DNA of 64,000 nt. It comes from Anaerolineales bacterium. Its GTDB lineage: Bacteria > Chloroflexota > Anaerolineae > 4572-78 > J111. The stretch's first letter is position 1. Each line of letters opens with the position of its first letter. The notes under the pieces were generated by a model, which was not told the DNA's origin, did not search any database, and saw nothing but the letters and a program-made list of their open reading frames with translations. A program made the position numbers and the translations under genes. Shown piece after piece: positions 2,410 to 61,673 of this stretch. The stretch covers positions 1-64,000 of the forward strand of contig JABTUW010000006.1 in assembly GCA_015075185.1 (NCBI GenBank), in the 5' to 3' direction.

Positions 2410-5280
2410 TTAAAACGAGTCCGATTGATCGGAATTCAGGTCAAGGGGAGGAATGTCTACTTCCAACCAGGGATCGTTAAATTGGTTGCTGATAGGTAAG
2501 ATGAAGTGAAAGGTAGAACCCTCTCCGATTTCGCTTTCTACCCAGACTCGCCCACCGTGAGCCTCAATCAGCGATTTGACAATTGCCAGGCCCACCCCAG
2601 TTTCACCCAGCCCTTCAATGAGGGGACGTTCAGCCCGGTAGAATCTTTCAAACACCCGTTCCAGATCCTTTTCGGCAACACCCCCCCCGGAGTCACGGAT
2701 GGAGACTTTGAGAAAGGAAGGACCTTCTTCCTGGGGAGAGGGGGCGCTGCTTTCAATTGAGGTAGATATATCAATCGCTCTACCGGCTGGTGTTGATTTA
2801 ATGGCATTGCTCAACAAATTACTCATTATCTGCCGCATCGAATCCGGGTCTGCTGCTATCGGGGGCATATCTTCCAGCAGATTCATGGTCAGCGTAATCT
2901 CATTTTCTTCAAGCTGGGCTCTGGCCCCAATAATCGTGTCCTCAATTACTTCGGCCATATCCACAATGCCGGGCCGGATTTCCAATTGACCGGCATCTAT
3001 GGCGGTGACGCCAATCAGATCATTCAGCATACTGCCCATGCGCTCGATGTTAGCCTTGATCCGCTGCAAAAACTTGCGCTGCATCTCGCCAATCATGCCC
3101 ACCGACTCGCCCAGCAATAAATCGGTATAGCCGGTGATAGAGGTCATCGGGGTGCGCAACTCCTGGGAAAGCGAAGCCACGAACTCGTTGTGGGCCTGCT
3201 GGCTTTCCGCTTCGGCAGTAATGTCGTACAAGATAGTGACTGTGCCTTCACGCCCATTGCCATCAGAAGAGGCCATGGGGCTGATGGTAGCCCGCAGCAC
3301 GTTGTCGCCCACTTTCAAGGTGGTTGAAACCATCGGTTCGTTCCTGGATCTGAGCTGTTCCAGAGCCTTCTGCCAGCGCTCATCCTCAAAAATCGAAGCC
3401 AGCTCGCTGCCGATCAAGTTGTTATTGGGCCGGACCAACAGTTGGCTGGCGACGGCATTGACCCGGTTGATCTTGTAGTTGGCATCGCCGATGATGACCC
3501 CACAGCTCAAATCTTCCAACTCGGCGCTCACTTCGGCGCTGGATAGAGCCGCCGGCACCGGCGCAGCTTGTTGGGTAGCCGTGCGGGCAGTCTTTAATGC
3601 GCGAGCCAGTTTGCGAGCGCGGTCATTCGCGGCAATTAACGCCTCTTTGGCGTGGACTGCCTCCACTGCTTCCTGCTCTAGCTGCTCGATCTTTTCCTGG
3701 AGAACCTGTTGTTCAGCCTCCATCTCCGCCAGACGTTTTTTCTGAGTTTCAGTCTCCACGGAGAGGGCAGCCACTTGCTTGTCTTTCTGCCCCGCTTTTT
3801 CAACCTCGACTTTAGCCCGTTCGATGGCCTTCTCCAGCTTGGTAGCGCGCTCGCGGGCCTGGCGTAAGGCTTCTTCATTGACTTTCTCAGCTTTTTCATA
3901 CTCATAGAGACGCTGAGCAAAAAGAGCTACTTCTTCGCGGCTCTTTTTGAGTTCGGTTTCCATAGCTGCCCGGCGCTTACCCGATTCTAATTCCTGGTTG
4001 CGCAGGGTCCAGGCAAGTTGTTGGGCTTTGGCCGACACGCCGGCATATTCCCTGGCATGCTTAATGGATACAGAAATTTGATCGGCCAGAGTTTTGCAGA
4101 GTTGGGCTTCGGTGGCGGTGAAAACACGCTTGGAGTTGGCATTACCCAGAATCAACACGCCCAACGGCTCACTATTCTGCTGCAACAACGGCTGGATAAT
4201 CAACGGGCCGACATCGTGCGCGCCCATCAAGGTAAAGAGGATGCGAATCTGGTTGTTATCCTGGTACTCGTCAATTTGAACCTGATATTTGCGCTTAAGG
4301 GCATGTTTGATCGCTTGCTGGTCGTTCAGGGGAAAAGTGACCGACTCGCCCCGGCCTTTACGGCTTGGATTGTAGATCGAAACCAGGCGAAGCTGTGAGA
4401 GATCATCAGAATTATCTTCTGGGAGGGCGATAGCGCATTGATCGGCCGCAATCGCATCGGCCACGCTGCGGGTAGCCCCATCCAACAAATGGGACAAGTC
4501 AAGCGAGGACGTAATTTCGCGGGTCGCTTCAAAAAGGCTGATCAACCCTTTGATTTGATCCAGCGAGATTTGGCTTAAATTCTGAAATTCTTCGGTTCGC
4601 GCCCGCAGCGATTGAATCGCGCCCTGGTACACAGCCACGGCAAAGACCGGATAGACAAACATTTCTACCAGACGAACCCAAATCGGGTTGTGCGGCAGGG
4701 GATACCTGGAGAGAAAGAAAAGATGCAGAACCAGGCCGGCCGTCAGCGCGCCAAAACTGGAGAGGGCATAAGCTCGTTCGTCGTCCAGTTTCGAGGCGCA
4801 GTTGACCGCCCCAAACAGGGCCAGCAAAATCTGCCAGCCGACAAAGTAAAGCTCCCAGCCGGTCCGGTTGAAATCAGTTCCTCGCCAGAATGAAGCCGCC
4901 AGAAAGAAAAAGATGAAGGCAAAGGTGGTATTGATAGCCAGCAAGACCGTACCACTGAACCCTCTTTCGCGCATAAACGGGGTAAAGCCCCAGACCAAAA
5001 ACCCCAAACTGGCTACACCGACCGCTCGCTCAAAAGGAGGCAGCCAGAAGTTGGCAATCTCGGCTGAACTGCGTCCCATCAGCGCCAACACAAAGAGCAT
5101 CACCCGCAGCAAGGTTAAACTGCCAAAAACAACGGTCAGCCGGCGTGCTCTAAACGAGTCGCTGCGCTGCCACTGTCCCCAGGCAATCACCAGGGCTGCT
5201 TCGATGGCAAAAAAGGTGAACAGGTAGTAGGCTAAAGTTACCGCTGGGCTGCCAAATGCATCAAGCAGAGAGTTAAGCAC
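2410..5280 (-). CDS. membrane sensor histidine-kinase-like protein lacking the phospho-acceptor His
   Basis: The 956-aa protein has an N-terminal block of about seven hydrophobic segments (residues 12-220), a GAF domain (about 255-410), a long charged coiled coil (about 415-560), a PAS domain (about 570-690), a HisKA-like dimerisation region (about 695-765) and a HATPase_c domain (about 810-930). The HATPase N box (NLLSNAIKS) and G boxes (DSGGG, GVGLAI) are intact. In the H box the expected SHELRTP reads SQELRTP, with Gln at residue 706 (codon at 3163-3165 is CAG). It may therefore be a pseudokinase, a phosphatase, or phosphorylate elsewhere. The start is GTG with AGGA 8 nt upstream. No response regulator is adjacent. 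Confidence 0.85.
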   Translation of the reverse strand: MLNSLLDAFGSPAVTLAYYLFTFFAIEAALVIAWGQWQRSDSFRARRLTVVFGSLTLLRVMLFVLALMGRSSAEIANFWLPPFERAVGVASLGFLVWGFTPFMRERGFSGTVLLAINTTFAFIFFFLAASFWRGTDFNRTGWELYFVGWQILLALFGAVNCASKLDDERAYALSSFGALTAGLVLHLFFLSRYPLPHNPIWVRLVEMFVYPVFAVAVYQGAIQSLRARTEEFQNLSQISLDQIKGLISLFEATREITSSLDLSHLLDGATRSVADAIAADQCAIALPEDNSDDLSQLRLVSIYNPSRKGRGESVTFPLNDQQAIKHALKRKYQVQIDEYQDNNQIRILFTLMGAHDVGPLIIQPLLQQNSEPLGVLILGNANSKRVFTATEAQLCKTLADQISVSIKHAREYAGVSAKAQQLAWTLRNQELESGKRRAAMETELKKSREEVALFAQRLYEYEKAEKVNEEALRQARERATKLEKAIERAKVEVEKAGQKDKQVAALSVETETQKKRLAEMEAEQQVLQEKIEQLEQEAVEAVHAKEALIAANDRARKLARALKTARTATQQAAPVPAALSSAEVSAELEDLSCGVIIGDANYKINRVNAVASQLLVRPNNNLIGSELASIFEDERWQKALEQLRSRNEPMVSTTLKVGDNVLRATISPMASSDGNGREGTVTILYDITAEAESQQAHNEFVASLSQELRTPMTSITGYTDLLLGESVGMIGEMQRKFLQRIKANIERMGSMLNDLIGVTAIDAGQLEIRPGIVDMAEVIEDTIIGARAQLEENEITLTMNLLEDMPPIAADPDSMRQIMSNLLSNAIKSTPAGRAIDISTSIESSAPSPQEEGPSFLKVSIRDSGGGVAEKDLERVFERFYRAERPLIEGLGETGVGLAIVKSLIEAHGGRVWVESEIGEGSTFHFILPISNQFNDPWLEVDIPPLDLNSDQSDSF

Positions 5281-19250: not shown

Positions 19251-19988
19251 TTACGTTTTACGTTTTACGCTTTTCACTATCTCTATAAACGACCGCACCT
19301 TCTCGTGATCCTTCTTCCCCTTCTCCTTTTCCACCCCGCTGCTGACATCTACCCCCCACGGTTGGACCACCTGCGCCGCCTCGGCTACATTCTCCGGGGT
19401 CAGACTCCCCGCCAGCATGATCGGATAATGCCGGGCAATAGTGGCCGCCATGCTCCAGTCGGTGACGTGGCCGGTGCCGCCGTAGAGGTGAGGGTGGTAA
19501 GCGTCGAGAAGCAGACAGGGGAGCAGAGGGGCAGGGGGGCAGGGGAGATATTTTTCAACGTATCTTTCGGCTTCTTGTATTGATTGGGGCCGCAGGGCTT
19601 TGAAGGCCCGGCCTGGGAATTGGGCGACAAACCCCGGCGGCTCCTCCCCATGCAACTGAGCCGCATCGAGTTGGCAAAAGTCGAGAATGTGAGCAACGGT
19701 GTCGAGAGGCGAGTTGACAAAGACGCCGACGAAAAGAGGAGAGACGTATTGCGTATGGTGTGTTGCGTCATACCCCCCAGTCAGTTTCCAATCCCCAGCC
19801 CCAGCCCCCTGACCCTTAACCCCTGCGACCTGCGACCTGCAACCTGCCACGATCTCTCGCACTACCTCCGGCCTCACATAGCGCGGACTCGGCTCATAAA
19901 AGATGAAGCCCAGCAAGTTTGCCCCGGCTTCGACCGCCACAAGCGCATCCTCTAAATTGGTGATTCCACAAATTTTAACTTTAACCAC
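19251..19988 (-). CDS. trpF: phosphoribosylanthranilate isomerase with in-frame repeat insertions
   Basis: The 245-aa TIM barrel isomerises phosphoribosylanthranilate. The catalytic Cys7 (KICGIT) and Asp162 (LLLDAY) are present, as are LLGFIF, AAQLHGEE and the phosphate-binding LAGSLTPENV. The protein is about 35-40 residues longer than usual. The excess lies in residues 49-82, encoded by tandem acctgcg/acctgca words and other low-complexity DNA, in 148-158 (LPCPPAPLLPC), encoded by a gggcagggggg-type word repeat, and at the C-terminus (VKRKT), encoded by tandem acgtttt words. The start is GTG at 19988 with AAGGAA upstream. Confidence 0.93.
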   Translation of the reverse strand: MVKVKICGITNLEDALVAVEAGANLLGFIFYEPSPRYVRPEVVREIVAGCRSQVAGVKGQGAGAGDWKLTGGYDATHHTQYVSPLFVGVFVNSPLDTVAHILDFCQLDAAQLHGEEPPGFVAQFPGRAFKALRPQSIQEAERYVEKYLPCPPAPLLPCLLLDAYHPHLYGGTGHVTDWSMAATIARHYPIMLAGSLTPENVAEAAQVVQPWGVDVSSGVEKEKGKKDHEKVRSFIEIVKSVKRKT

Positions 19989-24191: not shown

Positions 24192-24250
24192 ATTATTAAC
24201 GAAAAAGTTTTAGTTCACAATTCGCAATTGACAATTCACAATTCATAATT
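24179..24250. repeat. aattgtgaatt-word repeat between convergent genes
   Basis: Words such as gaattgtgaatt, cacaattcgcaattg and acaattcacaattcataattg are arranged as an inverted repeat between the cyclase gene and trpC. Each strand supplies the stop codon of one gene from the same word (GAA TTG TGA). Confidence 0.8.
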
Positions 24251-25042
24251 GACTAGCTCCCTCACCTTCTTCCCCACATCCTTGGCTTTGACCAGCGCCT
24301 CGCCGACCAGGATGGCGTCAATGCCCTCGTTCGCCAGGCGAGCGACATCCGCGGCGGTGTGGATGCCGCTTTCGGCCACAAAGCAGGTATCGGCAGGGAC
24401 ATGCCGGCGCAGTTCGATACAGGTATCCAAATTCACCGAAAAGTCACGCAAATCCCGGTTGTTTACTCCGATGAGGCGAGGCTGCAAGGGCAGGATACGC
24501 TCCAACTCAGCCTGGTCGTGGACTTCAATCAGGGCGGTCATCCCTAACTCGCGGGTCAGGGCCAGCAGATCCGCCATCTCCTTGTCCTTGAGTACGGCGG
24601 CGATGAGCAGCAGGGCATCGGCTCCGGCGGCGCGGGCTTCGTAGACCTGGTAGGGGTGGAAGATGAAGTCTTTGCGAAGCACCGGAGTAGGGGAAGAGGA
24701 CAGTTTTTGCAAGTGGTTTCGGATTTGGGTGAGATATTCTAATTTGCCCTGGAAATACTTGGCATCGGTCAGCACCGAGATGGCGGACGCGCCGTTAGTG
24801 GCGTAAGTTTGAGCCAGTTCGATGGGGTCGAAGTTGTGCCGGAGCAGGCCCTTGCTCGGCGACGCTTTCTTGACCTCGGCAATGAGAGCGACCCGACCAG
24901 CGGCTCGCAGAGTAGCCACAAAGTCTCTCGGCCTGGGAGCCAGGGCTGCCTCGGCCCGTACCAGCGCCGGTTCGCGGGCCTGCATCTGCTTGGGCAGTTC
25001 TTCGATGCGTTTGTATTTGATGATGTCGTCAAGAATGGTCAT
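24236..25042 (-). CDS. trpC: indole-3-glycerol-phosphate synthase
   Basis: The 268-aa TIM barrel closes the indole ring of carboxyphenylaminodeoxyribulose phosphate. Recognisable elements are the N-terminal ILDDIIKYKRIEE, catalytic Lys motif EVKKASPSKG, VLRKDFIF, IGVNNRDL and VAESGIHTAAD, followed by VGEALVKA. Length is normal. The C-terminal residues NYEL and the stop codon fall in an intergenic repeat. It is last in the trpE-trpGD-trpC block and is separated from trpGD by a 241-nt gap filled with three palindromes. Confidence 0.95.
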   Translation of the reverse strand: MTILDDIIKYKRIEELPKQMQAREPALVRAEAALAPRPRDFVATLRAAGRVALIAEVKKASPSKGLLRHNFDPIELAQTYATNGASAISVLTDAKYFQGKLEYLTQIRNHLQKLSSSPTPVLRKDFIFHPYQVYEARAAGADALLLIAAVLKDKEMADLLALTRELGMTALIEVHDQAELERILPLQPRLIGVNNRDLRDFSVNLDTCIELRRHVPADTCFVAESGIHTAADVARLANEGIDAILVGEALVKAKDVGKKVRELVNYEL

Positions 25043-29194: not shown

Positions 29195-30307
29195 ATGCGG
29201 ATTGGCATAGATGCGCGGTTGGTCTTTTATAACCGCGCAGGGATTGGTCAATATATTTTGCAGCTAACCGAGGCATTGGCCAGTCTTAAGCCTCATGAAG
29301 ATACCTTTCTGCTGTTGCAAAGCCGCAAAGACAGAGGCTCAATTGTCAAGAGCAACGGCTTTCTGCGCAAATCGTTGTGGACTCCCAGCCATAATCGGTT
29401 TGAGCAGACGGCGTTAAGTTTCGAAGTTTCACGTTTGGGGCTGGACTTGCTGCACAGCCCCGATTTTATTCCTCCCTTCAGACGCAATTACAAATCGGTT
29501 ATTACGATACATGATTTAGCCTTTTTATTGTATCCCCATTTTCTGACCAAAGAGAGCGCCCGTTACTACGGGCAAATTGACCAGGCCTGGCGCAAAACTG
29601 ATCATATTATCGCCGTATCAGAGGCGACCAAACACGACAGCATCAAAATGCTGGGAGTGCCGGAAAAGAAAATTACCGTTATCCACGAAGCCGCCAATCC
29701 AATTTATCGCCCGCTGCCAAAAGAGGAAGCCCGGCAGGTCGCCAAAGAGAAGTACAAACTTGACCAGGATTTCATCCTGTTTGTCAGCACGATTGAACCG
29801 CGCAAAAATTTACCCGGCCTGCTGCAAGCGTACCGCCGCTTGCGGGATGATTATAAACGTGAAGAAACGCTGGTTTTGGCCGGTTCAAATGGCTGGCTCT
29901 GGGAAGAAGTCTATGAGACCGTGGCCAAGCTGAACCTGGAAAAACACGTTGCCTTCCTGGGGCGGGTGCCTTCTGAGGATTTGGTTTACCTGTACAATGC
30001 CTCCCAGTTATTGGTTCACCCCTCGTTTTACGAAGGTTTTGGCCTGACTCCTCTTGAAGCCATGACCTGCGGTACGCCGGTCATTGTTTCCAACACCTCT
30101 TCGTTGCCTGAAGTTGTCGGCGATGCCGCCATGCTGATAAATCCTCACGACATTGAGGGTCTCACGGTAGCAATTTGGCGCGTGCTGACCGAACCAGATC
30201 TGCGCAAAGATTTAACCTGCAAGGGCCTCAAACGCGCCAAGAAATTCTCCTGGAAACATGCAGCTGAAAAAACACTGGAAGTTTATCATAAAGTAGGCAA
30301 AGGGTAG
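29195..30307 (+). CDS. GT4-family glycosyltransferase
   Basis: The 370-aa GT-B fold enzyme has an N-terminal acceptor domain (MRIGIDARLVFYNRAGIG) and a C-terminal nucleotide-sugar-binding domain with VSTIEPRKNLPGLLQAY and the EX7E region YEGFGLTPLEAMTCGTPVI. This matches retaining GT4 mannosyl- or glucosyltransferases of exopolysaccharide or glycolipid synthesis; donor and acceptor are unknown. The ATG at 29195 has AAAGAGG just upstream and starts at the conserved MRIGIDAR; an in-frame codon at 29168 overlaps the leader hairpin. It is followed by a repeat gap and a second GT4 gene. Confidence 0.9.
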   Translation: MRIGIDARLVFYNRAGIGQYILQLTEALASLKPHEDTFLLLQSRKDRGSIVKSNGFLRKSLWTPSHNRFEQTALSFEVSRLGLDLLHSPDFIPPFRRNYKSVITIHDLAFLLYPHFLTKESARYYGQIDQAWRKTDHIIAVSEATKHDSIKMLGVPEKKITVIHEAANPIYRPLPKEEARQVAKEKYKLDQDFILFVSTIEPRKNLPGLLQAYRRLRDDYKREETLVLAGSNGWLWEEVYETVAKLNLEKHVAFLGRVPSEDLVYLYNASQLLVHPSFYEGFGLTPLEAMTCGTPVIVSNTSSLPEVVGDAAMLINPHDIEGLTVAIWRVLTEPDLRKDLTCKGLKRAKKFSWKHAAEKTLEVYHKVGKG

Positions 30308-30413
30308 GGGATAGTAGATGGTGAATAGAAGATGGTAGTATAGAAGGAAGATAGAAAATACAATTCTCTATCTTCCATTCTCTATCTTCCATTCTCTATC
30401 TTCCATTCTCTAC
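30308..30413. repeat. gatagaagatag-word repeat between two glycosyltransferases
   Basis: gatagtagatggtgaatagaag-type words run in one direction and tctatcttccattc words (at least three tandem copies, 14-nt period) run back, forming a long imperfect hairpin. Related words occur at 46321-46378 and 60080-60198. Confidence 0.85.
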
Positions 30414-30421
30414 AAGTGGTG

Positions 30422-31663
30422 ATGCGAATTTTGCTGTTGACTCCCCAGCGGCCCTATCCCCCGCACCAGGGCACGACGCTGCGGAATTTTAATCTAGTGA
30501 AAGAGCTAGCCAAGCGCCACACTGTTTGTGTGCTGACGTTTCTGGAGCCAGACCAAAATCCCCACGATGCCGGCCCCCTGCTTAACCTGTGTGAATGGGT
30601 TGAAACAGTTCCCGTACCTCAACGCAGTACCAACCTGCGCCTGCGCCAAATGCTGACCACGGGTCGTCCTGACATGAGCCTGCGCCTTTGGTCGCCGGAG
30701 TTGAACGCCCAGCTTGCCAATAAACTCCGTGAGCAGCCGTTTGATGTAGTCGAAATCGAGGGCATTGAGATGAGTCCCTACCTGCCCACCCTCGAGGCGG
30801 CCCAGCCCCGTCCCCTAATTATTTACGATGCCCACAATGCCGAGTGGGTTTTACAGAAACGCGCCTGCCTGGCCGACCTCAAGAACCCGACTCGTTGGCC
30901 TGCTGCTGTCTACAGTTGGGTCCAGTGGCACCGCCTGCGGCGATATGAGGCTGAATTGCTGCGGCGGGTAGATCACACTATTGCGATGTCTCATCCTGAT
31001 AAGGTGGCTCTGCGCGATGTTGCCCCTGATGTACCCATCACCGTTGTGCCCAATGGCGTGGATTTGACCGCTTACGATAAAGTGGACCGGACTATTGCCT
31101 GCGATTTATTGTTTACCGGCAAAATGGATTTTCGGCCCAATATTGATGCCGTGCTTTGGTTTGGGAAGTATGTATGGCCGCTGATTCAGGCTCAACGTCC
31201 CGGCACAAGTTTTGCGATTGTCGGGCAGCGGCCTCACCCCCGGCTGGATGTTTTGCGCACTTTGCCCGGTGTGACCATCACCGGTTACGTGGACGACGTG
31301 CGGCCTTACCTGGCCGGAGCGAAGGTCTACGTGGCCCCGCTTCGAGTGGGCGGGGGCACCCGGCTGAAACTGTTGGAAGCCATGATGATGGGTAAACCGA
31401 TTGTCGCGACCACCCTAGGGGCAGAGGGCTTTCCGGTAGTTCACGGGCAGGAGTTGGTTTTAGCCGATGAGGCCGAGCATTTTGCCAGAGAGGTACTCGA
31501 TTTGCTGGACAACCCGGCTCGCCGGGCCAGGCTGGGGGTGGCGGGTCGAGCTTTTGCCCAGGCCAACTATGGTTGGGATGCGCTGATCCCCCAACTTGAA
31601 AAAATTTACCACGACCGCCGGCCCTTGAACGCAAGGCCTCCCTTTGGGTCGGCTGGCCGCTGA
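30422..31663 (+). CDS. GT4-family glycosyltransferase
   Basis: The 413-aa GT-B enzyme begins MRILLLTPQRPYPPHQG, has VVPNGVDLTAY at the start of its second domain, LLFTGKMDFRPNIDAVLWF, and the donor-site region RVGGGTRLKLLEAMMMGKPIV. It resembles PelF/Stp2-like sugar transferases that act on lipid or polysaccharide acceptors. The ATG at 30422 is chosen; GTG codons at 30416 and 30419 are alternatives. The DNA directly before the start is repeat sequence and carries no clear Shine-Dalgarno. It converges on the large SLATT-type gene. Confidence 0.87.
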   Translation: MRILLLTPQRPYPPHQGTTLRNFNLVKELAKRHTVCVLTFLEPDQNPHDAGPLLNLCEWVETVPVPQRSTNLRLRQMLTTGRPDMSLRLWSPELNAQLANKLREQPFDVVEIEGIEMSPYLPTLEAAQPRPLIIYDAHNAEWVLQKRACLADLKNPTRWPAAVYSWVQWHRLRRYEAELLRRVDHTIAMSHPDKVALRDVAPDVPITVVPNGVDLTAYDKVDRTIACDLLFTGKMDFRPNIDAVLWFGKYVWPLIQAQRPGTSFAIVGQRPHPRLDVLRTLPGVTITGYVDDVRPYLAGAKVYVAPLRVGGGTRLKLLEAMMMGKPIVATTLGAEGFPVVHGQELVLADEAEHFAREVLDLLDNPARRARLGVAGRAFAQANYGWDALIPQLEKIYHDRRPLNARPPFGSAGR

Positions 31664-35782: not shown

Positions 35783-35865
35783 CTCTCCGTAGAGAGTAGT
35801 CAGTAGCCAGTAATCAGTAGTCAGATAAGAAAAACCTCTGGCTACTGGCTACTGTCCACTTCTCC
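35783..35865. repeat. gtagtcagtagccag-word inverted repeat
   Basis: Tandem words agtagtcagtagccagtaatcagtagtcag are followed after an AT-rich loop by ctggctactggctactg, forming an imperfect hairpin between two convergent genes. It overlaps the last codons of the methyltransferase gene. Confidence 0.8.
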
Positions 35866-40540: not shown

Positions 40541-42220
40541 TTATTTTTGCAGCCAGGTTTCGACCAGTGGTTCAACACCCCGGCCCGAAACCTGTTCGAT
40601 CACGGCAAATAAGTCATCAGGCTGGGCAATTTTGTACTTGTGCTCGGCAAAATAGGTCTGCATAATCTTAAAGTAAGTCTCATCGCCCACCTCCTGGCGC
40701 AGGGCATTAAAAAAAAGCGGCCCCTTGCCATAGACAATCGCTCCGTACTGGCCCTCTGAAAAATCGGCCACTGGCCCCATCACGGCCCGATCTAGCCCCT
40801 GGCTTTTGGCCTGCTCATACGGCCCCGAAAAGAATGCTCTCACGATCTCTTTCGCAGGTTCCGCTCCCGCAATCGCCTCCCAGTAAATCAGGGTGCTGTA
40901 ATTAGTCAACGACTCGTCGAGCCAGGGGGTATCCACCTGATCGTTGCCGACCATACTGTACCACCACTGGTGAGCCACTTCATGGGCCGTTGCATGCTCA
41001 AAAAAACCGCCTGTATCATCATACATCCACTGTGATACGACCACCACTCCCGGATACTCCACCCCGCCGGCCCTCGTCGGCGTGGCCGCCACATCGAACT
41101 CGGCGTAGGGGTAGCGGCCAAACCGCTCGTTGAACACCCGCAGCGAGTCGGCGGCGTAGCGCAGGGCTAATTTGCCCCCCTCCGCCATTTCAGGCGGGTA
41201 GTAGCTGTTAACCACGGTACCTTCCACCGTCTGGCTGATCACGGCGAAGTCGGCCCGGGCCACGATATAAAAATCGCGCATCGGCCCGGAGACCAGGGAA
41301 AGGGTTTGGCTGCCGTCGGAGTTAGACCTGTTTTGTAACAAACTGCCCGAAGCGGCAACTACCAGCGGCTGCGGCGTGGTCAGTTCGACCTGGTAGAGCG
41401 AAGTATCCAGGTAGGTGGCGTCGCCATAGGACGGTGGGATCTCGATATTCCAGCCCGTTTCGTCGTATACGGCAATTGCCGGGTAAAATCCGGCCAGGGC
41501 AATCGTATTTTCGCTGGCAGAAAAGATATTGTAGCCCTGTTGGGTTTGCCCAGGCACATCAGCCTGAAAACTCAAAGTGATGTCGGCAGCCGCACCAGGC
41601 CGCAGTGGTTGTCTCAACGGGATCCGCAAAGCTGAATTTTTTGCCTTCAGTTCGGGCCGGACTGGTTGGCCGTCAACGACAACGGTACCAATGCTCATTT
41701 TGCCGTCGTAACCGGGCAGGTTGGGGTAAAGGCGAAAGTAGACTTCGGAGAGGGGCACATTTTCCGTATTGGTATAGCGGACCTGCTCCAGACCCTTTAA
41801 GTGTAGACTCTCCTCGCTCAGCGGCCTATCTTTAGGCCATTCCAGTTCAACTTCCAGATAATAGCGGCTGGCTCCCGCCGCAGCAACACTCTCTACATCG
41901 GCGGCAAACTCCGGCAGCATAGCCTGCCGGTAGGGAGCTAAATCGGCAAAATCGAATGCGACCGGCGCAGCAAGATCAGCCTCCACAGTAACCGGCGGGT
42001 TGGTGGCTGGCGGTGGTGATGATGGTGAGGGGGTTGGGAGTACAGAGGTCGGAGATGTAGTGGGAGAGAGCAAGGGAGTCGGGGAAGGCTGGCGGGTTGG
42101 TGCGGGCGTTGCCGTTGGTTCAGACACATTGGCGACAAGTGTGCAGGCCAACATACCCAGTGAGAAAACAATAATAATGAGAAGAAGCGCTTTAACAGAC
42201 TTACTGAATGGATTGTGCAT
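40541..42220 (-). CDS. M1-like zinc metallopeptidase lipoprotein
   Basis: The 559-aa lipoprotein has a signal peptide ending in the lipobox LGMLAC, a Pro/Thr-rich linker (about 35-75), a beta-rich N-terminal domain and a gluzincin catalytic domain with His413-Glu-x-x-His417 and Glu436 (HEVAHQWW, then WLDES 19 residues after the second His). M1 family aminopeptidases carry the GAMEN exopeptidase motif before the zinc site; here the matching stretch reads AGGVEYPG, so the specificity may differ. It is exported and anchored to the membrane. A paralogue lies at 44875-46422 in the same orientation. Confidence 0.88.
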   Translation of the reverse strand: MHNPFSKSVKALLLIIIVFSLGMLACTLVANVSEPTATPAPTRQPSPTPLLSPTTSPTSVLPTPSPSSPPPATNPPVTVEADLAAPVAFDFADLAPYRQAMLPEFAADVESVAAAGASRYYLEVELEWPKDRPLSEESLHLKGLEQVRYTNTENVPLSEVYFRLYPNLPGYDGKMSIGTVVVDGQPVRPELKAKNSALRIPLRQPLRPGAAADITLSFQADVPGQTQQGYNIFSASENTIALAGFYPAIAVYDETGWNIEIPPSYGDATYLDTSLYQVELTTPQPLVVAASGSLLQNRSNSDGSQTLSLVSGPMRDFYIVARADFAVISQTVEGTVVNSYYPPEMAEGGKLALRYAADSLRVFNERFGRYPYAEFDVAATPTRAGGVEYPGVVVVSQWMYDDTGGFFEHATAHEVAHQWWYSMVGNDQVDTPWLDESLTNYSTLIYWEAIAGAEPAKEIVRAFFSGPYEQAKSQGLDRAVMGPVADFSEGQYGAIVYGKGPLFFNALRQEVGDETYFKIMQTYFAEHKYKIAQPDDLFAVIEQVSGRGVEPLVETWLQK

Positions 42221-44874: not shown

Positions 44875-46422
44875 TTACCTCAACCACTCCTCCACCAAGG
44901 GATTCAAATTCTGACCGGACACACGCTGCGCCGTAACTAAAAAAGTCTGCGGGGTGACGATTTTATAGCGGTTTTCGAGGTAGTAGGTTTGCAGCACCTG
45001 CCGGTACATTACCTCGCCCAACTGCTCGCGCAGGGCATTAAAAAAGAGAGCGGCTTTGGCGTAAACCAGCAACTCGTAGCTGGCCGGATCGAAAGCGGCG
45101 GCCGGACGGTCAACGCTGCCGTCCAGGCTGCCGGCGGCGCTGTCAAAGGGAATAAGCCAGCGGCCGGTCATGAGCCGCTCGGCCTCGCCCTCGCCCAAGA
45201 TGCCACGGTAATACTCAAAGGCGCTGTATTCGGCCAGACCTTCGTCCAGCCAGGGATGTTGGTACGGATTATTGCCCAGGGCGGCGTACCACCATTGATG
45301 GGCCACTTCATGAGCGACCAGAAACGCCTGCTGTGAGCGGGTCGCCGGATCACTATTTTGGTACAAATCTTCCCCGATTAAAACCAGCCCGGTGTATTCC
45401 ATCCCCCGGAAATTGAGCGGCGCTTCGACTACGTCAAGCTCCGTATAAGGGTAGAGACCGTAAATGTCACTGTAGAAACGCAGCGAGGCGGTAGCGTGGG
45501 CCAAAACGGTCTTGGCTGCGGCTTCGTGGCCGGGTAAGTAATAGGAAGTGACCGTCGCTCCGGCGGCGCTCTCGCTGACCGCCTGGAACGGTCCGGCGAT
45601 GACGGTCATATCCCGCAGCGGACCGCCGACGATTTGCCAGGTGCGGCTGCTATCGGGGTTGTCAATAACGTTCAAGGTGACGCTGCTGGCAACGACGACT
45701 AAATCGCGGGGAAGGGTCAGGTCAAGCTGGTACAGGGCAACTTCGTTATAGAGGACATCCCCATGGGACGGGGGGTTATCCAGGATCCACTCCCCATCCT
45801 GCCGGACTGCCAGGGTAGGGTAAAAGCCGGACAGGCTGAGAATTGGGCCATCCCAACCAAAGAGAGTATAATTGCCCGCATCTAAACCCGGCTGGCTGCT
45901 CAATTCGGTGACAAAGGCTAAATCTACGGTGACAAATCCGGAGGATGAGTTAACGACCGGTAAGGCCAAACGAATGGCTGCCTCGTCGGCAATAGAAGTA
46001 ATATTAACCGGAGTGCTGTTGACCAACGCTGTCGTAACCCGGCTGATTCCGTCATAATTTTGCAAGTTGGGATAGAGGCGAAAAACCAGCTCCGAGCCAG
46101 GAGCGGGTACAATCACCTGGGCGACACCCTGCAAAGCCTGATTGGCTTGATCCAGCCGGGCGGTGATGTGATAACTCGGTAATGGACCGGCGGCCTCAAT
46201 GTCCCGCTGCGCCCAGGGCTGCAGCGCGGCCCGGTAATGAAAAAAAGGGTCAGGGGTGGGTGTCGGGGTAATGAGGCCGGTTTCAACTAAGAAGGTTTCG
46301 GGATCGAAGGCGCAGCCGGTCAAGAGGATAGAGGATTGAAGATAGAGGATTGAAGATAGAAGATAGAAGATAGAAGTTGGGAGACGGCGAAGGGCAGAGG
46401 AGTGGGTTAGACGGTTGCACAT
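44875..46422 (-). CDS. M1-like zinc metallopeptidase lipoprotein with repeat-derived signal peptide
   Basis: The 515-aa paralogue of the lipoprotein at 40541-42220 has the zinc site His371-Glu-x-x-His375 with Glu394 (HEVAHQWWYAALG, WLDEGLAEYS), preceded by LNFRGMEYTGLVL in place of the M1 GAMEN stretch. The signal peptide core (SIFYLLSSILYLQSSILLTGC) ends in an acceptable lipobox, but its DNA (46321-46378) is the gatagaagatag word repeat found in intergenic gaps. A short Thr-Pro linker follows. It should be an exported, lipid-anchored peptidase. The ATG at 46422 is the only start that gives n-, h- and c-regions. Confidence 0.87.
   Translation of the reverse strand: MCNRLTHSSALRRLPTSIFYLLSSILYLQSSILLTGCAFDPETFLVETGLITPTPTPDPFFHYRAALQPWAQRDIEAAGPLPSYHITARLDQANQALQGVAQVIVPAPGSELVFRLYPNLQNYDGISRVTTALVNSTPVNITSIADEAAIRLALPVVNSSSGFVTVDLAFVTELSSQPGLDAGNYTLFGWDGPILSLSGFYPTLAVRQDGEWILDNPPSHGDVLYNEVALYQLDLTLPRDLVVVASSVTLNVIDNPDSSRTWQIVGGPLRDMTVIAGPFQAVSESAAGATVTSYYLPGHEAAAKTVLAHATASLRFYSDIYGLYPYTELDVVEAPLNFRGMEYTGLVLIGEDLYQNSDPATRSQQAFLVAHEVAHQWWYAALGNNPYQHPWLDEGLAEYSAFEYYRGILGEGEAERLMTGRWLIPFDSAAGSLDGSVDRPAAAFDPASYELLVYAKAALFFNALREQLGEVMYRQVLQTYYLENRYKIVTPQTFLVTAQRVSGQNLNPLVEEWLR
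46321..46378. repeat. gatagaggattgaagatag-word repeat encoding a signal peptide
   Basis: Tandem words gatagaggattgaa and gatagaagatagaag occupy this stretch. Read on the minus strand they give a run of Leu, Ile, Ser, Phe and Tyr that forms the hydrophobic core of the lipoprotein signal. Confidence 0.85.
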
Positions 46423-46483
46423 ACGCGGATTATACCATAGAGATAAGCAACTTCATTATATACACTTGCGCAAATTTATCCTT

Positions 46484-58598: not shown

Positions 58599-60077
58599 AT
58601 GACTCTTTCATTTTTACTCATCATTCCCCTCGTCGGCGCAGTGCTGGTGGTGCTGATTCCCCGCGACCGTGAGGAGTTGAGCAAGTGGCTGGCGCTGGCG
58701 GTGTCGCTGCTGAACCTGCTGGTGTCGCTGCCGCTGTATTTTGGTTTTGAGGCCAGGGCCGGCTACCAATTTGAGGAATTTGCGGCCTGGATTCCCTCGC
58801 TTAACATCAACTACCACGTCGGCATTGACGGCCTGAGCCTTTTCCTGGTTTTGTTGACCACCTTCCTGTCCGTTATCTCCATTCTCAGTTCCTGGACGGC
58901 GATTACCACCCAGATTAAAGAGTACATGGCCTTAATGCTGGTCTTGGAAACGGCCATGCTGGGCGTCTTTACCTCGCTGGACCTGTTCCTCTTTTACCTC
59001 TTCTGGGAAGCCAGCCTGATCCCGATGGCCTTGCTGATCGGCCAATGGGGCGGCGAGCGGCGGATCTATGCCTCGCTCAAATTCATCATTTACACGATGG
59101 CCGGCAGCGCCTTGATGCTGGTGGCCGCCCTGGTTTTGTACTTCTGGGCCGAGCCGAATACATCGGACGTGCCGACGCTGGTGGCTAACGCCAACCTGCC
59201 GGCCACCTTGCAGGTGTGGCTCTTTATTGCCTTTGCCCTGGCCTTTGCGGTCAAAACACCCCTGTTTCCCTTCCATACCTGGCTGCCTGCCGCTCACGTC
59301 GAAGCCCCGACGGCCGGTTCGATCATTCTGGCCGGGGTGCTGCTCAAAATGGGGACGTATGGCTTTCTGCGCTTCGCCATCCCGCTTTTCCCCGCCGCCG
59401 TACCGTTCTGGACGCCGCTCATGGTCGGTCTGGCCGTCATCGGCATTTTGTACGGAGCGCTGGTGGCGCTGATGCAGGAGGATGTCAAGAGTCTGGTGGC
59501 CTATTCCTCGGTAGCGCACATGGGCTACATTGTCCTGGGTATCTTCAGCGGCGGCCAGCAGGGCTTGAGTGGAGCGGTGCTACAGATGATCAATCACGGC
59601 CTCAGCACCGGCATGCTCTTCTTTATGGTCGGCGTGCTGTACGAACAGCGCCACACCCGCCTTTTCAAAGAATATGGCGGCATTTGGGTCAAAGCGCCGG
59701 TCTTTGGCGTCTTCTTTTTACTGGCGGCCTTGTCATCGGTGGGGCTGCCGGGATTGAACGGCTTTGTCGGCGAATTTGTGATCCTGTTAGGGACCTTCAG
59801 GGTCAATTGGGTGGCGGCCACGCTGGGCACCATCGGCATTGTGCTGGCGGCCTGGTATTTGCTGACTGCGGTACGCAAGGTCATGTTTGGCCCGTTTAAC
59901 CCGGCCAACGACCAGCTCAAAGATATGAATCCGCGAGAAATTGTTATTGCCCTGGCCCTGGTCATCTTTTTCTTTGTGATTGGCCTGTACCCCAATCTGC
60001 TGTTCGATAAAATCAACCCGGCCACCGCCGAATTGGCGACGATGATCAATGCCACAACGCTCCTGGCGGAGCGGTAA
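58599..60077 (+). CDS. nuoM: NADH-quinone oxidoreductase subunit M
   Basis: The 492-aa antiporter-like subunit has FLFYLFWEASLIPMALLIG, VKTPLFPFHTWLPAAHVEAPTAGS and SVAHMGYIVLGIF, with the lysine and glutamate residues of the proton channel. The ATG at 58599 is preferred because TTTGGAG lies 6 nt upstream; the alternative ATG at 58581 would overlap nuoL by 4 nt and add six residues. The gap to nuoN is 132 nt and contains repeats. Confidence 0.95.
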   Translation: MTLSFLLIIPLVGAVLVVLIPRDREELSKWLALAVSLLNLLVSLPLYFGFEARAGYQFEEFAAWIPSLNINYHVGIDGLSLFLVLLTTFLSVISILSSWTAITTQIKEYMALMLVLETAMLGVFTSLDLFLFYLFWEASLIPMALLIGQWGGERRIYASLKFIIYTMAGSALMLVAALVLYFWAEPNTSDVPTLVANANLPATLQVWLFIAFALAFAVKTPLFPFHTWLPAAHVEAPTAGSIILAGVLLKMGTYGFLRFAIPLFPAAVPFWTPLMVGLAVIGILYGALVALMQEDVKSLVAYSSVAHMGYIVLGIFSGGQQGLSGAVLQMINHGLSTGMLFFMVGVLYEQRHTRLFKEYGGIWVKAPVFGVFFLLAALSSVGLPGLNGFVGEFVILLGTFRVNWVAATLGTIGIVLAAWYLLTAVRKVMFGPFNPANDQLKDMNPREIVIALALVIFFFVIGLYPNLLFDKINPATAELATMINATTLLAER

Positions 60078-60079
60078 AA

Positions 60080-60198
60080 CAGAGGATAGAAGATAGAGGA
60101 TAGACGCAAAGCGTAGAGGATTGAAGATAGAGGATAGAAGATAGAAATTTTGATGAGTAGTCTATCCGTTATCCACCATCTTCTATCTTCCATCTTGT
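60080..60198. repeat. gatagaggatag-word inverted repeat in the nuoM-nuoN gap
   Basis: agaggatagaagatagaggatagac and following words face tccaccatcttctatcttccatctt. The family is the same as the repeats at 30308-30413 and 46321-46378. Confidence 0.8.
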
Positions 60199-60209: not shown

Positions 60210-61673
60210 ATGCCAATAGAATTTCCAACCTTGAATTTTGCGGCGTTAGCGCCGATACTGACAGTTCTCGGTACGGCGGCGCTGGTGATGATCTGCGATC
60301 TGATCTTCAAAGACAAACGGTTCCTGGGCTATTTGAGTTTGTTTGGGCTGGTTATTGCCGCGGCACCCTGCTTTTTGATGCTGATGGAAGCCCCACCTGC
60401 CCCTTCGTTCCAAAATATGGCGGTCAGCGATGGTTACTCGCTGGTGCTTGACCTGATTTTTATCGTCACCGCCGCTCTGTCGATACTGGTATCTCTCAGT
60501 TATCTCGATCACAAGAACATGCAGCGCGGCGAGTATTACGCCCTGCTGCTCTTTGCCACCAGCGGCATGATGCTGATGGGCGCGGCCACCGATTTGATCA
60601 TCGTCTTTATGGGGCTGGAAGTCATGTCCATCGCCCTGTACATTTTGGCCGCTTTCAACCGGCGGCAGCCTGCTTCGGGTGAGGCCGGGATGAAATATTT
60701 TGTGCTGGGCGCTTTTGCTTCGGCCTTTTTCCTCTACGGTGCGGCCATGCTCTATGGCGCAACCGGTACAACCAATCTCCAGGCTATGGGAGCCTGGTTT
60801 TCGCCGGAGCGAGGGAACCTACGCGATCCCCTGGCCCTGGTTGGCCTGGGATTGCTGCTGGTCGGGTTTTCCTTCAAAGTCGCCGCGGTTCCCTTCCAGT
60901 GGTGGACGCCCGATGTCTACCACGGCGCGCCGACGTCGGTGACGGCTTTTATGTCCGTTGGGGCTAAAGCTGCCGGTTTTGCCGCCCTGGTCCGGGTGCT
61001 GATGGTCTCTTTTAGCAACGCCTTTACCCTGGACTGGCAAATCGCCGTCGCCGTGCTGGCCTTCATCACCATGACCGGCGGTAATATCGCTGCCCTGGCC
61101 CAAAAGGATGTCAAGCGTATGCTGGCTTACTCCAGTATTGCCCATGCCGGATACATTCTGGTGGGGGTAGCCGCGGGCAATACGGCCGGCGTGACCGGAA
61201 TTCTCTTTTACCTGATGGCCTACGCTTTTATGAATATCGGCGCTTTTGCTGCGATCACCGTATTGGAACAACGCAATGCTATCGGCACGGGCTTTAGCGA
61301 TTACGCCGGACTGGGGGTGCGGAAACCCTTGTTAGCCCTGGCCATAACCTTCTTCATGTTCTCGCTGACCGGCATTCCTCCCTTTGTCGGCTTTTGGGGC
61401 AAATTGTATGTCTTCGGGGCGGCGGTTCAGGCTAATTTGAGCTGGCTGGCGGTGGCCGGGATGATCAACAGCGCTATCTCAGCTTTCTATTATTTGGCAG
61501 TGGTGGTGCAAATGTACATGCGCTCCGCACCCGTCGACGGTGGGGAAATAGCGCCGCTCCACTTAAATGGCCCCGTCACCATTACCCTCGCCCTGGCCGC
61601 GCTTGTGACCATCGTCTTGGGCGTCTGGCCTACGCCCCTGGTCAATTTGACGGCTCTAGGATTATTTGGCTAG
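60210..61673 (+). CDS. nuoN: NADH-quinone oxidoreductase subunit N
   Basis: The 487-aa antiporter-like subunit has LLFATSGMMLMGAATDLIIVF, GLEVMSIALYILAAF, FKVAAVPFQWWTPDVYHGAP and KRMLAYSSIAHAGYILVG. GGGAGAAGG lies just upstream of the ATG. It closes the operon in the usual A-N order. No terminator is evident in the 100 nt after it. Confidence 0.96.
   Translation: MPIEFPTLNFAALAPILTVLGTAALVMICDLIFKDKRFLGYLSLFGLVIAAAPCFLMLMEAPPAPSFQNMAVSDGYSLVLDLIFIVTAALSILVSLSYLDHKNMQRGEYYALLLFATSGMMLMGAATDLIIVFMGLEVMSIALYILAAFNRRQPASGEAGMKYFVLGAFASAFFLYGAAMLYGATGTTNLQAMGAWFSPERGNLRDPLALVGLGLLLVGFSFKVAAVPFQWWTPDVYHGAPTSVTAFMSVGAKAAGFAALVRVLMVSFSNAFTLDWQIAVAVLAFITMTGGNIAALAQKDVKRMLAYSSIAHAGYILVGVAAGNTAGVTGILFYLMAYAFMNIGAFAAITVLEQRNAIGTGFSDYAGLGVRKPLLALAITFFMFSLTGIPPFVGFWGKLYVFGAAVQANLSWLAVAGMINSAISAFYYLAVVVQMYMRSAPVDGGEIAPLHLNGPVTITLALAALVTIVLGVWPTPLVNLTALGLFG

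Follow-up and report, generated by a model that had tools for sequence, protein, structure and literature searches.

The hydrophobic core of one lipoprotein's predicted signal peptide is spelled in tandem 7-bp words, and these words appear to belong to a degenerate set of heptanucleotide arrays scattered through the whole genome. It is likely, in our view, that such arrays are inherited, that they lodge where hydrophobic or loop sequence is tolerated and that they then swap words with hydropathy roughly kept. The phenomenon is wider than signals: most translated arrays of the GATAGAA word sit in multi-span proteins, and arrays of other words occur in a loop of a soluble enzyme. The window (the whole stretch of DNA analysed, 64,000 nucleotides) is positions 1-64000 of contig C7 of the 9.4-Mb genome G000. 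Around the lipoprotein gene, P0001, it holds the following features.

44875-46422, minus strand: P0001, an M1-peptidase-like lipoprotein of 515 residues (open reading frame and translation, Pfam, relatives)
46323-46376, no strand assigned: heptamer array of GATAGAA, GATAGAG and GATTGAA words, TTCTATC and so on in the coding sense (Tandem Repeats Finder, lag-7 score 29.5)
46321-46374, minus strand: array-encoded hydrophobic core SIFYLLSSILYLQSSILL (sequence and translation)
46312-46422, minus strand: predicted lipoprotein signal peptide, residues 1-37, ending LTGC with the lipobox Cys (charge, hydropathy, lipobox pattern)
46429-46434, minus strand: TATAAT box, 6 nt upstream of the P0001 ATG (read by eye; the sister genome G001 keeps the box)

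Peptidase family M1 is recognized by a zinc motif, HEXXH, and a downstream Glu. The translation of P0001 contains HEVAH and WLDEGLAE, which would be that signature, and its match to PF01433 (Peptidase_M1) reaches 67.8 bits against the curated Pfam cut-off of 27.7. Relatives are present in 53 of the 61 genomes searched. (A second M1-like gene, 38% identical, lies about 3 kb away in the window, at 40541-41986 on the minus strand.) Sec/SPII lipoprotein signals combine a positively charged n-region, a hydrophobic h-region and a lipobox ending in Cys. The P0001 reading frame opens with MCNRLTHSSALRRLPTSIFYLLSSILYLQSSILLTGC, which has three net positive charges ahead of the h-region, a best 12-residue hydropathy of 1.83 and an LTGC that fits the lipobox pattern applied; by inspection of charge, hydropathy and lipobox, the means by which all signals of array hosts were assigned here, this is a predicted Sec/SPII lipoprotein signal peptide. 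The array, 54 bp of 7-bp words with a period of 7/14 in Tandem Repeats Finder, accounts for residues 17-34 (46374-46321). The initial annotation had proposed that the core was repeat-encoded, and the translation bears this out; it had drawn the feature at 46321-46390, of which the array portion stands and ends at 46376, the remainder to 46390 being ordinary N-terminal region. P0001 is thus presumably exported by way of an array-built signal.

The P0001 array is neither chance nor isolated. In 364 kb of G000 (the window plus 15 stretches taken regardless of arrays), 15 arrays appear at lag 7 with the score applied. The same 364 kb gives 0, 0, 2, 2, 1, 0, 1, 2 and 1 at lags 4, 5, 6, 8, 9, 10, 11, 12 and 13, and 10 and 11 at lags 14 and 21, as multiples of 7; a second-order Markov control gives 0 at lag 7. 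An unbiased 1.164 Mb of the genome holds 52 period-7 arrays, roughly 45 per Mb, with 14 inside called genes and 38 outside. Coding sequence makes up 79% of that sample, a depletion of arrays in genes at p 7e-16, and P0001 is the only signal-peptide array found in it. The words are diverse: 693 units from 135 scanned arrays comprise 176 distinct heptamers, counted over rotation and strand. With an exact 7-bp unit, many loci and a mainly intergenic location, these are dispersed heptanucleotide tandem repeats of the STRR-like kind. The other arrays of the window illustrate their range.

19822-19850, no strand assigned: array of another word, translated inside TrpF (gene 19254-19988, minus strand; array scan and orthologue comparison)
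24214-24250, no strand assigned: TTCACAA array at the 3' end of the called gene 24236-25042 (Tandem Repeats Finder, lag-7 scan, gene calls)
30311-30412, no strand assigned: intergenic arrays of GATAGAA-type words in two facing (inverted) blocks, between called genes 29195-30307 and 30422-31663 (Tandem Repeats Finder)
35789-35824, no strand assigned: intergenic array of GTAGTCA type (Tandem Repeats Finder, lag-7 scan, gene calls)
60081-60196, no strand assigned: intergenic arrays of GATAGAA-type words in two facing blocks, between called genes 58599-60077 and 60288-61673 (Tandem Repeats Finder; fold z -2.7)

The two GATAGAA-type sites between genes agree with the earlier report that the P0001 words fill gaps at 30308-30413 and 60080-60198.

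A repeat of seven has a peculiar relationship with the genetic code. Because 7 mod 3 is 1, a heptamer array yields one circularly permuted heptapeptide in all three frames; tandem TTCTATC gives FYLLSSI (mean Kyte-Doolittle hydropathy 1.71) in 3 of 3 frames of one strand, just as the initial annotation had held in saying that one strand naturally encodes runs of Leu, Ile, Ser, Phe and Tyr. The opposite strand gives KIEDRR-stop in every frame, so that an array leaves the frame open in one orientation only. Reading sense was listed for 21 translated GATAGAA arrays. Nineteen of them encode the hydrophobic peptide, and every one of these 19 lies in a host with five or more spans; the remaining two, one in L068 and one in the C-terminal tail of a 7-span protein, are translated in the hydrophilic sense.

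Where do translated arrays reside? The GATAGAA pattern search listed 100 of 106 places at up to two mismatches and 68 places for a degenerate form (a reversed pattern is no valid control for a periodic word). The resulting near-complete census of the GATAGAA family in G000 comprises 53 scored arrays, 23 of them within called genes, in 23 distinct hosts. With the array masked, five or more spans are counted in 21 of these 23 hosts, whereas proteins of that class make up 15.4% of coding bases (p 1.5e-15), spans being tallied with a simple gene caller and a hydropathy count. The other two hosts are a cytochrome-c lipoprotein, L098, with the array in its signal, and L068, whose N-terminus, MNKYFWLLPTLLILTAC, is lipoprotein-like. 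A further four arrays, called extragenic, sit upstream of masked start calls in the signal peptides of P0001, the macroglobulin-like L033, the periplasmic-binding-type L096 and the SCO1-like L098 4019-4056 (Pfam). The initial annotation had raised the prospect of other exported proteins whose signals match the repeat, and the hosts of L033, L096 and L098 are such proteins. All told, 27 of the 53 arrays are translated (21 in multi-span proteins, 5 in signal peptides and 1 inside another lipoprotein), and no clearly cytosolic host was seen among the 27. The bias towards membrane proteins rests on this one-word census and on a weaker unbiased sample, the 1.164 Mb, in which proteins with five or more spans account for 6 of 14 gene hosts and for 15.4% of coding bases (p 0.013). 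A larger tally, which put 64 of 75 arrays in multi-span hosts (five spans or more), we set aside as biased: its stretches had been picked for GATAGAA and many of the genes stand in tandem clusters.

Position within the hosts is also skewed. The 20 residues that follow the 59 interior arrays of multi-span hosts have a hydropathy of 0.92 against 0.32 (sd 0.11) at random, a value reached in 0 of 2000 random draws from the same proteins; the 20 residues ahead of them are lower, at 0.15 against 0.35 (p 0.03). Across words, then, arrays in multi-span hosts tend to lie just ahead of a span. The densest translated-array hosts are tandem clusters of large membrane proteins (DUF2079, PMT_2/PTPS-like) with up to four arrays per protein, found in L042, L046, L047 and L091 on contigs C1 and C3 of G000. 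The GATAGAA word is not a phylum trait: at up to one mismatch it appeared in 3 of 301 genomes of the phylum, in a draw that left out family members such as G001. G175, from another family of the phylum (L315-L320), has 47 + 58 GATAGAA-type matches; in the stretches covered its arrays are long, and 0 of 11 in seven stretches fall within an open reading frame of at least 200 residues.

TrpF takes us to a soluble enzyme. Compared at 12 of 14 loci, its relatives in G001, G009, G013, G015, G019 and G004 carry other-word arrays in the same loop or in a second loop, and those of G007, G005 and G011 have no array marked at those loops. In the predicted structure (mean pLDDT 84.5), the array starts towards the end of helix 40-58; the insert that follows, residues 59-81, is disordered or of low confidence between that helix and strand 85-90. 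Array and insert lie away from the conserved core of the alignment. The insert runs to about 30 residues, and across the order the two TrpF loops hold arrays of different words. The 1011-residue membrane protein of L091, compared at 7 of 14 loci, has arrays in matching loops in several species with differing words, and short, array-free loops in others.

The history of the P0001 signal is best read from its orthologues, whose N-termini were compared at 14 of 30 loci. G001 is the sister and the one same-genus relative compared; G010 is of the same family. The G001 protein, 79% identical, begins with MFNRPTHPATSFRLASCILRLLVTGYWLLTTGFLTAC, and where G000 has TTCTATC its array has TTGCATC and TGGCTAC, with the length to the Cys unchanged. 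Aligned with each other, the arrays of G000 and G001 need no gap and share a register, at an identity of 0.50, compared with 0.15-0.44 at shifts of 1-6, 0.29 after shuffling and 0.62-0.75 in the flanks. From this shared register we conclude that the P0001 array is old and has had its words exchanged. Orthologues from other genera start with a hydrophobic stretch of lipoprotein type that ends in Cys and is spelled without these words; the signal therefore predates its present spelling. The initial annotation had proposed comparing orthologues to see whether their signals are unrelated; signals without the words exist in other genera, and the sister keeps an array made of other words.

Word changes or array-free forms across species recur in five lipoprotein families. 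The binding protein of the L096 family (6 of 12 loci compared) has three kinds of array words in G000, G001 and G013 and none in G005. For the macroglobulin-like protein (6 of 10 loci), arrays occur in G000 and G001, and the G006 and G007 forms are array-free; the GH10-like protein (4 of 10 loci) carries arrays in G000, G001 and G006 but not in G005, with a TTTACG stretch common to both sisters, some of the arrays in these two families falling below the scoring threshold and being read by eye. Among the 12 of 14 loci compared for the cytochrome-c lipoprotein, only G000 has an array, directly before ICLLLLTGCWYDMR, and G001 has TCLLLLTGCWYDMR with no array; here the array was evidently inserted into a pre-existing signal, upstream of the LLLLTGC lipobox. 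Across 26 signals, the 11 with arrays reach the Cys after 34.8 residues on average and have a mean best-window hydropathy of 2.35; the 15 without need 23.3 residues and average 2.75. Signals built from arrays thus tend to be longer and less strongly hydrophobic; they may simply be tolerated, a view that fits at least as well as improvement. The macroglobulin-like L033 also has, at 3979-4017, a second array of TCAACAG type in its n-region, ahead of the TTCTATC array, and P0001 and the macroglobulin-like protein match one another through their signal regions.

How might all this come about? The P0001 signal core would be one translated member of the genome-wide array set. An array that lands or grows in a gene would keep the frame open in one orientation only, and would survive where the encoded peptide suits the site, TTCTATC-type words in signal peptides and within or next to membrane spans, hydrophilic words in loops and tails. 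Selection on hydropathy presumably does this sorting. A resident array would then be inherited in register while its words are replaced, leaving sister signals alike and differently spelled. Replacement may proceed by slippage or recombination; polymerase slippage at 7 nt is proposed for heptamer abundance in the accessible text of PMC4679880, and recombination between arrays is a possible route.

The alternative that survives best has each species gaining its arrays independently, at sites that tolerate insertion, with no old array to inherit. It would fit the differing words at shared sites and the scatter of array-free species among the others, but we consider it unlikely in view of the register common to G000 and G001 in P0001 and of sites where the two sisters share words. 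It is very improbable that the array is a phase-variable contingency locus, in which gain or loss of a 7-bp unit toggles the lipoprotein by shifting its frame. Since seven does not divide by three, gaining or losing a single unit would throw everything downstream out of frame, and 7-bp repeats do switch genes elsewhere (PMC8262952, in the part accessible). Yet the P0001 units are degenerate, with only about three perfect ones in a row, the array is gapless against that of the sister, and arrays are equally found inside housekeeping and membrane proteins.

The initial annotation raised another origin, that repeats may create export signals de novo; on this view an unexported ancestor would have gained export once the array became translated. 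The P0001 h-region does consist wholly of repeat words, and stop-free heptamers with a mean hydropathy of at least 1.6 are not rare (994 of 11256). This proposal has nevertheless fared badly, and we now hold it to be highly improbable: array-free orthologues already begin with lipoprotein-type N-termini, the sister array is in register with other words, and the cytochrome-c array joined a signal whose LLLLTGC lipobox, downstream of the array, is conserved in species that have no array there.

The last alternative concerns the start codon. The P0001 ATG (at 46422) and the TATAAT box are both conserved in G001, and a TATAAT 6 nt before the ATG suggests a leaderless mRNA beginning at that codon. 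(A consensus promoter scan returned a plus-strand site only, the minus-strand box at 46429-46434 being absent from its list.) The only later start codon ahead of the Cys in G000 is a TTG at codon 33, counting from 0; G001 has no TTG there, and past its ATG the in-frame start codons are numbers 18, 45 and 49. It is extremely improbable that the array is an untranslated leader with translation beginning downstream of it, for although a codon-based gene caller run with the array masked chose the TTG of LTGC, that start would strip P0001 of its signal, the sister lacks a start codon at the position, and the ATG, the box and a distance of exactly 37 codons from ATG to Cys are all kept between the two genomes.

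The reading we prefer, inherited arrays that swap words, has a bolder extension: an active process in this lineage that lays down and rewrites period-7 DNA with changing words in a constant register, and so keeps rebuilding export signals, span boundaries and surface loops, each in a new spelling. We offer this tentatively, as rather doubtful for now. If true, period-7 rewriting would supply new segments for membranes and secretion whatever the reading frame.

Repetitive coding DNA has a long history. Ohno reportedly argued, in a theory of early genes, that oligomeric repeats give the same reading in every frame when the unit length is not divisible by three; unlike that theory, the G000 case would be a present-day bacterial process. 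Rickettsia palindromic elements (RPE) are repeats translated within unrelated proteins, palindromes of one conserved sequence. The P0001 array differs from them in that its words vary, and no exact inverted repeat of at least 8 bp was found in the array and 60 bp on each side. PARCELs, as their report describes them in its accessible part (PMC2996958), resemble our case in tying repeat coding sequence to membrane-targeted proteins and differ in being a 25-residue motif with dyad symmetry, spread by transfer, and not a heptanucleotide. Closest of all are the TAACTGA heptanucleotide arrays of Beggiatoaceae and some cyanobacteria (PMC4679880, accessible text): dispersed 7-bp arrays, mostly intergenic with some inside open reading frames, one strand having stops in all frames and the other open, with the heptapeptide LSVISYQ. 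That system has a single word, found within reading frames mostly at protein ends or in hypothetical proteins, and a proposed regulatory role. G000, unlike it, has many words, located inside known membrane and exported proteins and turning over at orthologous sites. In cyanobacteria and Xanthomonas, the short tandemly repeated repetitive (STRR) and heptameric simple sequence repeats (PMC4692102) are likewise degenerate, genome-wide and over-represented in non-coding DNA; the accessible part of that report has them under-represented in coding regions and does not treat signals or membrane segments. Heptamer arrays, their stop and open strands and their occasional presence in reading frames are thus already known, as far as the accessible texts of PMC4679880 and PMC4692102 go. 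What looks new is the scale, the location in export signals and the turnover of words. The open-access literature yielded no report of repeat-built signal peptides, of heptamer arrays in Anaerolineae, or of arrays as signal peptides or neighbors of membrane spans with orthologous word turnover; subscription journals lay mostly outside the search, which makes this weak evidence of absence.

These arrays matter to us as natural cases, comparable between species, of repetitive DNA supplying working protein parts, with hydropathy seemingly kept while the sequence is rewritten. With them one could test directly the least information on which a signal peptide or membrane segment can work, as well as the long-standing proposal that repeats whose unit length is no multiple of three make frame-proof coding DNA. 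They also carry a warning for annotation, since similarity between the signals or loops of unrelated proteins here can stem from a common repeat.

Two further observations concern the arrays themselves. A complete switch of word can occur inside one array with the 7-bp register held, as from GATAGAA to CGTTGAA; such switches are seen in L042 4009-4072, L046 4024-4089 and L065 3192-3263. Facing (inverted) blocks are frequent in intergenic arrays and could form hairpins: beyond the two sites in the window (30311-30412 and 60081-60196), they occur in L293 4918-4995, L295 9536-9602, L303 13941-14010 and L313 5612-5717. A fold z below -2 is found at 12 of 21 intergenic array sites, compared with 3 of 14 sites within genes and 1 of 60 randomly drawn pieces.
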